Under the pieces are notes generated by a model. It saw only the letters and a program-made list of their open reading frames with translations. It was not told the origin of the DNA and did no database searches. Made by a program: the position numbers and the translations under genes. 64,000 bases of DNA. Origin: Dicyema japonicum (lineage: Eukaryota > Dicyemida > Rhombozoa > Dicyemidae). Shown in pieces: positions 43,066-54,237 of the stretch. The DNA lies in contig RDEW01000005.1 in assembly GCA_011109175.1 (NCBI GenBank), positions 1,046,643 through 1,110,642 of the forward strand, given 5' to 3'. The first letter of the stretch is position 1. Each line of letters begins with the position of its first letter.

Positions 43066-45022
43066 AGGCGTTCCAGTTTCTTTAGGAAACTAAACGATTT
43101 CTCGCTTATTCTCCATGTTGTCTCAATTAAGATGGGACAGAACTGAACCGATCGTGCTTCGTATTTTTCTCTTTTGCTGTCATTGCTTTTTCTTTGGCAT
43201 AGTGTGTCTACCGCGTTCGAGACAGCTTTGGATGGATAAAGGGAGTCTATGCACGTAGCATCCTACACCAATAGCTTTCTCTCCTAAAATGAAAAGATTG
43301 TAATTTCGTCCGACCGTGTTCCTTCTCTTCTGTCCAGGCCAACAGATTCAAGTATGGAGGGGAATTCTGCAGATTTCAGTGCTCACTTAACAATTCCGTT
43401 GATCGCCTTATGTCTTGGGAATTGTCCTGCACTTCTTCGACAAGAAAGGGCATGATGTCCATAACTCAGAGTTTTTAGTGTGACCAGTTTGTATACTCAA
43501 ATTACCTTATGCAGCCTCCGGAGCTTTTTAAGTTTGGCATGCATGTTCTTCCATATTCACAAACTTTCAGGAATAGGCTGATCCATATAACTGATCATCC
43601 ACAGGTGCAATAAAAGGACCACGCCTTAAAAAATAAATAGCTATAGAAAAATTTGGCGATTTCATAGAAAGGCTGAGACTCTAGTGTCTACATGGAACTT
43701 CAGATCTAATGAGACTGTTGACTATTATTGGAAGCAGTTTTCCTATTTTTTTAATTAAACATCTTATAATTTGTGGGGACTAGACGTCTACCATCGAGCC
43801 TAGTTAGCTTCCAACAAGACAGAACAACGTAGATTAACGTAGACTCCAGGATATTGATAATCGTAAATAACTAGACCTACACCCTCGCTGTGCCTCACGT
43901 CATGGATATTCTTACGCCCCCATCTGCTCTCCATGGCTGACCCTGGATGGATACTGAGAAGTTATTTATGATATTTCAACACAAGACAAATTAATTTTGA
44001 TACAAACGACCACTAAAATTGAAAGCAACTAAGACATTTATTAGTTATAAATGTGAAAATGTATTTTTATAGGAACGAGGCTAAGCTTGTGTTTAGACTT
44101 TTTTCTGTTTTTGTCTTATTTCAAAGTCGCTCTACGTTTCTTTAAAAATTGTCTTATTGTCACTTATAAAAAGTACATTCCATATGAATTCAGCAAAGTC
44201 TTCACTTTTCCATGAGATCGTCGATCTGTTCTTAAAAAGCTTCTGGATCAAATCGATGTGCTTGAGAGAATAAGGAATTGAGTCTCTCTGAGATAAAAAA
44301 GACGATCTCATCCATAGACAAAATACCAAAGAATAGAAAGACTCATCACCTCTTTGAAACCCATGATTACTGGAAAGCCATAAATTCAGTAGAAATAGAC
44401 GACTCCTATAGTCTTCCGTGCTTCTGGCTTTTCAACAACAAATCTATGCAATGTTTCCGAGACCACGCTAATTTACAAACGCGTCGATACGTAAAGATAA
44501 CCCGCCTTCTTACCCTACATTTTGACCAAGAAGATCCTCACTGTGGATAAAGACCTGGATAATCACTTTTCTCAACAGTCTTAAACGTTACACTATCATG
44601 TCTACCTGCTCTCTATATTGTAATGGATCCTACCATCATAATGCATCCTCGTTTTGACAACACTCCAAGAACAATTTGATAACATTTCCATTTACACGTC
44701 AATCTCCTCAACTCTTTCCAGCCATCCTGATCCATCTTTATAACCAACCTTCATCAATTCGATCTAGGACTATTACTGCTCATATTGAGACTCATTTTTT
44801 TAACCAAACAACCAGAATACTTAAATGATTTTTGATATTTTCTTGTTAATTTCAAAGCACATCTCATACGTATTTAACAGATTGAAAAAGCTCAACAGTC
44901 TTTGAGTCATGGTTAGCGCATCTTTTAAAAAGAATAAAATAGCCTAACAACTTTCTACAGACAGCTCATCAGAATTGAATTAATAGAATTAACCTTATAA
45001 AGAGTAAGTTATAGATAACAAA
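43066..45022. other. Intergenic, unassigned
   Basis: A 90-codon plus-strand frame (44278-44547) and an opposing minus-strand frame show no family pattern. No RNA or repeat is recognised until the tRNA gene. Confidence 0.35.
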
Positions 45023-45095
45023 GCCTGGTTAGCTCAGTCGGTAGAGCATCGGACTTTTAATCCGAGGGTCACGGGTTCGAGCCCCGTATCAGGCT
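45023..45095 (+). tRNA. tRNA-Lys (anticodon UUU)
   Basis: A full cloverleaf: acceptor GCCTGGT pairs with ATCAGGC, the D-arm is GCTCAGTCGGTAGAGC, and the anticodon stem CGGA/TCCG encloses CTTTTAA with anticodon TTT. The T-arm is ACGGGTTCGAGCCCCGT. It is 73 bases without intron. A T-run (45095-45099) follows at once and would stop RNA polymerase III. The A-box (TAGCTCAGTCGG) and B-box (GGTTCGAGCCC) are intact. Confidence 0.97.
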
Positions 45096-45245
45096 TTTTG
45101 CTTTTATCTTGTTTAAAAAGTATTTTCATCTATTTATTTTTTAAAAGTGCTCCATAGTTAATTTACATTAAAACAATGTACGAATCCGCAGTATTTATGA
45201 ATAGAATTTTTGTATCTAGATTTGTATCTAGATAAAATAATCATC

Positions 45246-45425: not shown

Positions 45426-45631
45426 ATAAAAAATTTTTGTTTAAAAAAAAAGATAAAATAAAATAAGAAAAAAAATTGAATTAAATAAAGACTAGATAAG
45501 ATTAAAAAAGACTTAAAATAGTTAAAATGAAGAGTTTTAAGTTTGATTGACTGCACTTTTTGAGTTTTATCGGTCTATCTTTAAAATGATGATCTATATA
45601 ATAAAAGATTAAGTTGTCTGTGATAATTGCA

Positions 45632-46240
45632 AAATAAGATGATTCAACCTCTTCAAGAGATCGGTCCCTTAGAAAATTAAAATTCTAAAAAGAGTTAAAA
45701 AAAGAGATTCATTTGAAAATAAGATGATTCGTCCTCTTCACAAGATTGGTCCCTTAGAAAATTACAATTCTAAAAAGAGCTAAAATAGAGATTCACATAA
45801 AAATAAGATGATTCGACCTCTTCACAAGATTGGTCCCTTAAAAAATTAAAATTCTAAAACAAGTTAAAAACGAGATTCACATAAAAATAAGATGATTCGA
45901 CGTCTTCACAAGATTGGTCTCTTAAAAAATTACAATTCTAAAACAAGTTAAAAAAGAGATTCACATAAAAATAAGATGATTCGTCCTCTTCACAAAATCG
46001 GTCCCTTAGAAAATTAAAATTCTAAAACAAGTTAAAAAAGAGATTCATTAAAAATAAGATGATTCGACCTCTTCACAAGATTGGTCTCTTAGAAAATTAA
46101 AATTCTAAAACAAGTTAAAAAAGAGATTCACATAAAAATAAGATGATTCGACCTCTTCAAAGATTGGTCCCTTAGAAAATTAAAATTCTAAAAAAAGTTA
46201 AAAAAGAGATTCATTAGAAAATAGATGATTCGACATCTTC
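45632..46240. repeat. Minisatellite, 84 bp x about 8
   Basis: The word GATGATTC recurs at 45638, 45723, 45807, 45891, 45975, 46058, 46142 and 46224, giving periods of 82-85 bp. Units carry GATTCGACCTCTTCACAAGA, TTGGTCCCTTAGAAAATT and AAAAAGAGATTCA. Units are about 90% identical and directly adjacent, with no spacers. Confidence 0.95.
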
Positions 46241-46324
46241 AAGAGATACTCATTATAGATAATCACAAAAATAAACACCTCTCCCCCTTACAGAACTTCA
46301 AATAATTCTTTAGAACCGTCAGGG

Positions 46325-46755
46325 ATGCCACATCATACTTTAAAATTAAAAGTAGGAGCGCCAGTTGTTCTATTACGAATTCTAGAATCTCAAAGGTTAT
46401 GTAATGGTACAAGATTGGTAGTAAAAAATTTGATGTCTAATGTTATAGAAGGAACGATATTAACGGGGCGAAATAAAGGAGAAGACGTTTATATTCCAAG
46501 AATTCCAATAATTTCGGATGAATTACCATTTAGAGTTTAGAGACTACAAATTCAATTGAAGTTAAATTCGCGATGACAATCAATAAATCACAGGGACGAA
46601 CTCTTAAAGTAGTAGGTTTATCTTTAGCAAGTGAATGTTTTGCACATGGACAGTTATATGTAGGTTGTTCTAGGGTAGGTGAACGAGAAAACCTATTCAT
46701 ATACACAAAGGACGGTCGTACAAGTAATGTAGTATATCAACAAGCATTACAATAA
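46325..46755 (+). pseudogene. Helitron-type PIF1 helicase, C-terminal remnant
   Basis: 46325-46537 encodes HTLKLKVGAPVVLLRILES, CNGTRL and a TGRNKGEDVYIPRIP block. 46573-46752 encodes the end of the PIF1-like helicase of Helitrons (MTINKSQGRTLKVVGLSL, then QLYVGCSRV, ending TSNVVYQQAL). Between them an in-frame TAG (46537-46540) and a one-base shift near 46555-46565 disrupt the reading frame. No Rep domain is found upstream, where the minisatellite lies. Confidence 0.85.
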
Positions 46756-47612: not shown

Positions 47613-47679
47613 AATTATTTATTCGTTGTCAGAAAATGTGATTATTTTACCACAAATTTCATCATATCGAAATAAATAA
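47613..47679 (-). promoter_or_regulatory. SECIS element of the MsrA mRNA
   Basis: On the minus strand a lower helix (TTATTTATTTCG with CGAATAAATAA) leads to a short internal loop. The quartet strands follow: ATGAT at 47665-47661 and TGAC at 47631-47628. An upper helix of 12/11 bases encloses an apical loop starting AAAA (47648-47645). The 12-base spacing between quartet and apical adenines is that of eukaryotic SECIS elements. It begins about five bases after the MsrA stop codon. Confidence 0.85.
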
Positions 47680-47683
47680 TGAA

Positions 47684-48335
47684 TTAAGAAGGTATCCTTT
47701 GATAAATCATATCTAAAGTAGATTTAGGCAAATCAAATTGAGAAGATTCCTAAACTCAATAAATAACAAAACCTCCAAAAATTTAGCTTTCTGTCCGTAA
47801 TCACTAAAATATCCATTAATTCTGCAGGCTAAATGTGATTCTATGATTTGTTTATCATTCATATTCAATTTGGAGAAAATTAGTTTATTACTACGAAGAA
47901 AATATTTTTGATGATAACTATAATAAATACAAAAATAAACTTTTCAGCGATGTAAAAATATTCGGCAGGTTTTACAATTGTTGTGACTGGTCCCACACGC
48001 TGAGTCTTTGACTCTATTGCTTGAGCATATTGAGTGTCATCACACGTAAAAATGGCTGACATGTATTGATTTGTCCTCTTAACTGAAAAATCATGATTTT
48101 CCCAAAACGTATTCAAAAGTTGAGAGTAACTAACGACATTAGGGTCAAATTCAATTTCAATCGTTTCAGTATGATCTCCTCTATGTTTTAATATAATAAT
48201 ATACAAATCTTTGTAAGTCGGATTAGTAGTTGTACCGCCCGTAAATCCTACTCTAGTCCTAACTACACCGGAGACACATCCAAAGAGTGCCTCCGGAAAC
48301 CAAAATCAGGCCATACCAAATAATGCCTTACTCAT
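47684..48335 (-). CDS. MSRA: Peptide methionine sulfoxide reductase A, selenoprotein
   Basis: MsrA repairs methionine-S-sulfoxide in proteins. Four exons joined over introns 48181-48204, 47918-47940 and 47750-47772 give 193 codons from ATG 48335 to TAA 47684. Seen in order are ALFGMA-TGA-FWFPEALFG, VRTRVGFTGGTTTNPTYKDL, GDHTETIEIEFDP, LLNTFWENHD, NQYMSAIF and AENYHQKYFLR. The TGA (48308-48306) stands exactly where the family has its catalytic cysteine (GCFW). The frame is otherwise open, and a SECIS follows the stop, so the residue is most likely selenocysteine. Selenocysteine MsrA is known from green algae and some invertebrates. The alternative, a nonsense mutation, would not explain the SECIS. 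Confidence 0.92.
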
Positions 48336-52162: not shown

Positions 52163-54237
52163 ATGTTGAACAATATAGTCGAAATACCAATTAGAGGATC
52201 AGACGAAGTAATTTTATAAAATAATGCTAGATAATCGAAGTTGACTGTTCAAACCTCCCCTTTTACACAGAAATTATCAATATAATGCAACAAGAACGAA
52301 TACCTCTTTACTCTGCTTATGAACTCGGGGTAATCATCTCATAACACACATAGCTGGCGTACTATCGAGTCAAAGACTTTGATGGCTTTGAATCGATAAT
52401 GTCCTCTAGTGAGAATCTCTGCGACTCGCAATACGAAGGATCAGATCGTGATCTGATGCACATTCTCGACTGTCTGGCGATCTTCTATACAAGAAAGGGC
52501 CAAAAATGTAGTGACGAGTCTTCGAAGCGTTTATTTTTTGAGAAGGCCACCACCATTTACACAAAAACTGACAGAATGGCTACCTACGACCAGGTAGTCT
52601 TACACGTCTCAGCTATAGTTGCATCTACTTGCACGTGCCTTCTTCTATCTGCACCATGGAGGAGCCGTTCAGCAGGCTGAGGAACAATTCGACTTTATTA
52701 TCAGCAAAGTTAGTGTTTTGGTAAGCCAAGGATCCTTACTGCATTCCCGCTCTGCTTGGGAAGGCCAACATCGTCTTCAACAGGAAGGAGTATAAACGGG
52801 CACTAAAATGCTACTCGGACGCGTTGAGGGCTAATCCGAAGGGTCCCCCTTCTATTCGATTGGGTATCGGATTGTGCTACCTTAAATTGGGGAACATGGA
52901 TAAAGCAAGGTTGGGGTTTTACTTGAGTGAAGGATGGCCTTTGGAAGGACTCTCAAATTGGATAGTAGTTGTGTCGGCGCTCTTGTTGGCATGGCTTTGT
53001 TCGAGTTGAACACCAAAGTTGGGGTTTCTGTCAAGAACGGGACAGAACTGCTGTCAGCTGCTTATGGGATAGACCCAAACAATCCAATGGTGCTCAACCA
53101 TCTAGCCAACCATTTCTTCTACCGAAAGGACTACGCCAAAGTGAAGCCTCTTGCACAGCACGCCTTCAACAAGGCAGTCCATGAGGGAATGAAGATGGAA
53201 AGTTTGTACCATATTGCCCGTTATCACCACGCTATGGTTGGTTGTTGTGATATTGTAGGGAAACTACGAGTCTGCCTTCATCTACTACTTTCAATGCACT
53301 CAACACGCATCCCAGACTTTCATCCTTCCCTATTATGGACTGGGACAGATATATCTGTGGAAGAATGATAGAGAGAGAATGTTGGCAACTCACTCAATTG
53401 TAGGCCATTGGAGCCTTCAAACGGGTGTTGGAGACATTACCAAACAACTACGAGACTTTGAAGGTCCTCGGTTGCATGTATGCCACATCAAACAACACTG
53501 ACGACAGAAACAAGGCCAAAGTGGGAGAGATTTAACAATTTAGGAATATCTTGGTAAGGTGACTTCAATGCAGCCAGATGACGTCGAGGCTTGGATAGAA
53601 TTCTCCCAAATTCTGGAACATTCTGACCCTCAGGTTTTTTGTCATACTTATTAGACAGAAATCCTACGAGGCATACAAGAACGCTTCACATATCCTCGAA
53701 AAGAATATGAATGATGTTCCACCAGAAATCCTCAACAACATTGGAGCTCTCTCCTTTAAATTAAACAAACTGAAAGATGCTGAGGTAAGCCTATTCCTAA
53801 TAGCAGAAATACTTGGAGATTGCATTAGAAGGTTGTATGCGAGATCTTGCCAAAAACGAAACTTACTACACCATGATATCAGTTACAGTAAAGTACAACA
53901 TTGGACGAGTACATGAGGCCCTTTACGACAGCGAACGGGCACAACAGATTTACTTGCAGATTCTTGAGACTCAACCTAAATATATTGACTGTATTGTATA
54001 TGAGGGATGTTAGGTCATTTCCGACTGTTCAGTATAATGCAGAGTATTGGGAAACATGAACTTGCTGACGACCACCTCAAACGAGTTTTATCGATAGACA
54101 AGGTTTGGAGTTACATGATATGGTAGAACAATTGTGATGCCAACCAAATGTGGATGCCATGGTTTATACTGACCTTACCCCTCACTCTTATTTCTGGATC
54201 TGTGGACGTTAAGGAGGATATTTCCTTAATGATCTAA
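52163..54237 (+). CDS. CTR9: CTR9 homologue (Paf1 complex TPR subunit), N-terminal half only
   Basis: CTR9 is the TPR scaffold of the Paf1 transcription elongation complex. Thirteen exons yield about 597 codons. The start is [13 protein letters not shown], like the family's IEIPLRDTDE opening. TPR blocks follow in the expected order: [132 protein letters not shown]. The introns are 52208-52230, 52330-52353, 52594-52618, 52709-52730, 52910-52932, 53237-53258, about 53379-53403 (odd borders), 53521-53543, 53634-53658, 53785-53806, 53991-54013 and 54103-54126. Homology ends near 54155, and a stop follows at 54235. The second half of the usual roughly 1100-residue protein is absent, so this is truncated, partial or a pseudogene. 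Confidence 0.9.

Follow-up and report, generated by a model that had tools for sequence, protein, structure and literature searches.

The gene for MsrA, the enzyme that repairs oxidised methionine, is almost certainly a genuine selenoprotein gene in the dicyemid Dicyema japonicum, with an in-frame TGA standing where the catalytic cysteine codon would be expected. It lies complete on the minus strand of the window (the whole 64 kb stretch of DNA that was analysed), and when the introns are spliced out of the genomic sequence it consists of four exons with 193 codons plus a stop (Table 1). The spliced gene is 582 nt long and in frame, and its sole in-frame stop ahead of the terminal TAA is the TGA at 48308-48306, which aligns with the catalytic Cys of MsrA homologues and has conserved flanks on both sides. 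An initial annotation of this DNA had proposed that the TGA replaces the catalytic Cys and that the remaining conserved blocks are intact over the four exons; splicing and alignment with homologues bear out the first of these points, and the second holds as well, the other 192 codons being open. The product matched PF01625 with 120.3 bits (cut-off 23.7) over positions 1-148 of the 153 in the profile and scored 106.0 bits against TIGR00401, for which the cut-off is 108.1. The putative C-terminal helical domain (PF20939) gave 16.3 bits against a cut-off of 23.7, and the alignment with the solved structure 4lwj runs through residue 187. Tyr41, Glu49, Gln82, Tyr83, His126 and Tyr129 are, by alignment, the counterparts of the pocket residues of the MsrA of C. 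oremlandii (CoMsrA). The TGA is read as a Sec codon because the frame is intact apart from it, the pocket residues are kept, the statistics of a downstream SECIS-like element are favourable and the genes for the Sec machinery are present. Confidence in this reading is unchanged after the helix distance (three as against five bases), the homologue counts and the background counts were corrected.

Table 1. Coordinates of the MsrA gene, its SECIS-like element and related features elsewhere in the genome (positions without a locus label are those of the window)
Feature	Position	Strand	Basis and remarks
MsrA exon 1, ATG start and active-site Sec codon	48205..48335	-	splicing, alignment
In-frame TGA, inferred Sec, catalytic position (GMA-U-FW)	48306..48308	-	splicing, alignment
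Intron 1, 24 nt, GT...AG	48181..48204	-	removal restores KDLGDHTE
MsrA exon 2	47941..48180	-	PF01625 search, splicing
Intron 2, 23 nt, GT...AG	47918..47940	-	splicing
MsrA exon 3	47773..47917	-	splicing
Intron 3, 23 nt, GT...AG	47750..47772	-	splicing
MsrA exon 4, TAA stop at 47686-47684	47684..47749	-	splicing
SECIS-like element (helix I, quartet strands ATGA/TGAC, helix II, apical AAAA)	47614..47680	-	folding, constrained scan
SPS2 SECIS candidate	L036 2526-2609	-	constrained scan; quartet starts GUGA
SelH-like SECIS candidate	L042 1368-1452	-	constrained scan; quartet starts UUGA
TrxR SECIS candidate	L053 1761-1847	+	constrained scan; quartet starts GUGA
TrxR C-terminus, GC-TGA-AGT-TAA	L053 1719-1727 (G000:C34)		

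The neighbourhood of the gene in the window includes a tandem array at 45631-46241 (an 84-base unit in 7.3 copies with 91% matches), situated between a tRNA-Lys (45022-45096) and MsrA. A weak Pfam helicase match on the plus strand at 46573-46752 (17.1 bits, cut-off 27) probably represents the C-terminus of a Pif1/Helitron-type helicase, and a plus-strand open reading frame at 52934-53368, with no Pfam match at E up to 0.01, presumably resembles the TPR protein CTR9.

The hairpin of the SECIS-like element begins three bases after the TAA of MsrA and not, as first described, about five. Helix I pairs 47680-47668 with 47625-47614, the quartet strands are ATGAT (47665-47661) and TGAC (47631-47628), and helix II pairs 47660-47649 with 47642-47632 below a loop, AAAATA, at 47648-47643. 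Folding agreed with the initial annotation on the quartet strands, the apical AAAA and the long lower helix; the 12-base upper helix that it described was right as to the span of the strands (12 and 11 nt), but these form 10 base pairs interrupted by a 2x1 internal loop. The candidate conforms to the SECIS layout, having a quartet, two helices and an apical AA 11-12 nt above the quartet. An unconstrained fold yields the SECIS shape at -13.4 kcal/mol with a z of -2.18, and a fold at least as good arose in 9 of 200 shuffles, a statistic that taken alone is only moderate. Since a filter without the lower helix proved too loose, giving 66 matches in 128 kb with the MsrA element at rank 29, a constrained fold with both helices was adopted, in which a candidate needs UGA/GA strands placed between two helices, and an apical AA or CC. 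A single candidate was returned from the 300 nt after the MsrA stop, with an energy of -15.9, and dinucleotide shuffles of the same 300 nt contained any candidate in only three cases out of 200 and an equally stable one in none of the 200. The 2667 TGA on the two strands of the window yielded 26 loose candidates in all, and no energy among these reached -20. Three of the 26 are more stable than the MsrA element, which ranks fourth. Its lower helix, at 17 paired bases, exceeds all the others in length, and of the three candidates that combine at least 14 such bases with an AA 11-12 nt above the quartet the MsrA element has the lowest energy. The Rfam model SECIS_1 matched neither the element nor, with E allowed up to 10, any other site in the genome, though in control genomes it gave nothing above its cut-off either; in an Rfam scan of the MsrA locus the only matches were two at chance level that stayed under their gathering scores.

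Searches of the 64.7 Mb genome assembly recovered the Sec machinery that the initial annotation had implied, namely tRNA-Sec, eEFSec, an SBP2-type domain and SepSecS, and this machinery presumably works. The tRNA-Sec scores 75.7 bits and has the anticodon UCA (TCA in DNA). eEFSec, which was found with TIGR00475 and not picked up by the short domain model PF21208, lies in several exons, includes the eukaryotic C-terminal domain (PF21131, 51.1 bits) and has a PDB match to eEFSec at E 8.7e-21, and the best solved match of the SBP2-type L7Ae domain is SECIS-binding protein 2 (E 6e-10). SepSecS occurs at two loci, on C113 (L037) and C143 (L038); the copy on C143 has an open frame up to a run of N, and that on C113 is spread over several frames, a layout that may represent introns or decay. 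A PSTK-like sequence comprises three collinear exons and is weak, the best score being 30.2 bits against a cut-off of 382. Three further genes have an in-frame TGA at the Sec position. In SPS2 (selD match, E 1.3e-24) it lies in ELKG-U-GCKVPQ. The end of TrxR reads GC-TGA-S-TAA once a 23-nt intron is removed, and the protein probably ends in GCUS in place of the usual GCUG. The third gene, with TGA after TS, belongs to the SelT/SelW/SelH family (52.3 bits against 34.2) and is called SelH-like here; its exon 1 was not located. A second SelH-like fragment, on C137 (L043 1441-1640, minus strand), has a TGA within the matched region, gave no SECIS candidate in the constrained scan and looks like a remnant. 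SelT and SelW were not seen in an Rdx search of the genome, which gave two places, both SelH-like, and the single GPx match in the genome is a Cys form.

With stop positions set by eye, the constrained scan of the 300 nt past the stop gave exactly one candidate each for SPS2 (-25.7), the SelH-like gene (-28.8) and TrxR (-22.8). Shuffles contained any candidate in 10, 13 and 13 cases out of 200, respectively, none of them as stable as the real one. As controls, about 600 nt 3' of each of DLD and eEFSec yielded no candidate in the same scan and the Cys-GPx locus yielded one weak candidate, at -10.2. A covariance model built from the two MsrA copies missed the candidates of the other three genes, and the four can therefore be said to share layout and not sequence; a MAFFT alignment also failed to bring all four into register. 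Their quartet starts differ, AUGA in MsrA versus those listed for the other genes in Table 1. Invertebrate SECIS elements outside sponges are almost all AUGA according to the available part of PMC3473315.

With an E limit of 0.001, the PF01625 search of the genome found two places. The second, on C77 (L002 1501-2240; G000:C77:590690 onwards), shares 96.7% identity with the first across an alignment of 540 nt. It lacks exon 1, and with it the active site, keeps its introns and has an insertion between the coding end and its copy of the SECIS, in which the quartet strands are kept (ATGA/TGAT). It is a truncated duplicate made at the DNA level. No Cys-MsrA was found in the genome by this search, and the second intact Cys-MsrA gene that the initial annotation had considered as a counter-case is absent from its results, the C77 copy being without the active-site exon and PF01625 giving no other place. 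The existence of the truncated copy means that MsrA has been duplicated and has decayed at least once, which lends some weight to the idea that the gene in the window is itself a pseudogene and its TGA an ordinary nonsense mutation at the catalytic codon. This is very improbable, however, given that the other 192 codons and the three introns are intact, that many related proteins appear to have TGA at the same codon, that a SECIS candidate follows the gene and that the pairing of TGA with a SECIS recurs in three other genes. One changed base would also suffice for a sequencing or assembly error to turn TGT or TGC into TGA, but such an error would be unlikely to fall on exactly this codon with a SECIS downstream, and the same pattern is seen in SPS2, TrxR and the SelH-like gene, so that the chance of this is minimal.

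The reading of the TGA as Sec can also be set against the homologues, of which 321 were found. Among the 120 matches listed, to which the site counts apply, the catalytic site is occupied by Trp in 45 and by Cys in 61, and 14 are without the site. In our reading the Trp probably arises where gene callers used on metagenome sources translated a TGA. That Trp is printed in 45 of the 120 homologues listed could also suggest that TGA has been reassigned in the genome, for example to Trp, but it is established that Trp is incapable of the catalytic chemistry; moreover, MsrA is without a second in-frame TGA, both of its Trp codons are TGG and a tRNA-Sec with the anticodon UCA is present. Reassignment is thus scarcely credible, and decoding as Sec is preferred. 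The tree places the dicyemid MsrA within a clade (support 100/99) whose 62 rows comprise the gene itself, 40 Trp rows, 7 Cys rows and 14 without the site. As the clade is dominated by rows with Trp, read as TGA, Sec looks to be ancestral in it and to have been retained by the dicyemid. The dicyemid branch is long (1.17) and sits beside Crassostrea and Trichoplax (100/88), a placement that is not pressed as it rests on the long branch. The aligned animal MsrA records of Crassostrea, Penaeus, Panulirus and Oppia are without the Sec site. The Trp-printed and site-less records, with several named animals among the latter, are probably the product of a systematic annotation fault. The available part of PMC6736024 describes a D. 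japonicum genome of 67.5 Mb in 377 scaffolds with a mean intron of 38 bp. Contamination from the octopus host was rejected, since five of the genes (MsrA, TrxR, SPS2, eEFSec and the SelH-like gene) each have GT...AG introns only 23-27 nt long, in line with that genome.

C. oremlandii is a bacterium and inserts Sec by the bacterial route, not via a 3' UTR SECIS. Its MsrA is by sequence the closest solved relative of the dicyemid protein (PDB 4lwj, 4u66; E about 5e-47 over residues 2-187), and the two are alike in their pocket residues and may be so in a C-terminal helical domain, the catalytic Cys16 of the bacterial protein occupying the position of the dicyemid TGA. The C. oremlandii enzyme is natively a Sec protein (PMC4333827; also PMC4479559) with active-site residues Tyr47, Glu55, Gln89, Tyr90, His137 and Tyr140 (PMC4333827), as given in the parts of these papers that were available. 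Among animals, excerpts of PMC3473315 list MsrA for five of six marine invertebrate species, in Sec and Cys forms, and excerpts of PMC4244043 report Sec-MsrA from the centipede, D. pulex, I. scapularis and amphioxus, with a SECIS downstream of each selenoprotein gene of the centipede. The dicyemid gene is like these in being an animal MsrA in which Sec apparently replaces the catalytic Cys, and, as far as those excerpts go, which make no mention of dicyemids, differs from them in its introns of 23-24 nt and in a SECIS candidate three bases past the stop. The novelty suggested by the initial annotation is accordingly narrower than proposed: no report of Sec-MsrA or selenoproteins in dicyemids or orthonectids was found in the literature searched, most subscription papers lying outside it, and the available main text of the D. 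japonicum genome paper (PMC6736024) contains no word beginning 'selen', but Sec-MsrA is already on record for several invertebrates and amphioxus. Since it has been reported from marine invertebrates, some arthropods and amphioxus, only its occurrence in a dicyemid seems to be undescribed.

MsrA is presumably transcribed, translated with insertion of Sec and active as an enzyme. The pathway roles of tRNA-Sec, SBP2, eEFSec, PSTK, SepSecS and SPS2 are established, and along these lines Sec would be built on tRNA-Sec by PSTK and SepSecS, with selenophosphate supplied by SPS2, here apparently a selenoprotein itself, and the SECIS in the 3' UTR would recruit SBP2 together with eEFSec carrying Sec-tRNA(UCA), allowing UGA codon 10 to be decoded as Sec. 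In a pocket predicted to be formed by Tyr41, Glu49, Gln82, Tyr83, His126 and Tyr129, a selenolate in place of the usual thiolate would then attack the sulfoxide of oxidised methionine.

The nearest comparison for selenium use in a reduced parasite is with the parasitic flatworms Schistosoma and Taenia, which, in the available part of PMC3828610, have reduced selenoprotein sets with SPS2 and TR kept, as in the dicyemid. Seleno-MsrA is present in free-living planarians and has been massively lost in the parasitic flatworms, which keep GPx as a selenoprotein, whereas the dicyemid keeps Sec-MsrA and its one GPx match is a Cys form. We incline to the view that a dicyemid of some 30 cells keeps every part of the Sec pathway to serve a few proteins (MsrA, SPS2, TrxR and SelH-like), that it has no MsrA other than Sec-MsrA, and that within its one genome the quartet starts of the SECIS elements have diverged (AUGA, GUGA, GUGA and UUGA). 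If this is true, the SBP2 of dicyemids would tolerate a looser core than is expected from the idea of one pattern per organism proposed for animals in the part of PMC3473315 consulted. The case is a warning that genes of the Sec-MsrA type are missed or cut by automatic gene models. A parasite far more simplified than the flatworms appears to have retained Sec-MsrA, with no other form of MsrA, along with the entire and costly Sec pathway. Dicyemids can thus serve to examine for what purpose selenium use persists when gene loss is extreme.
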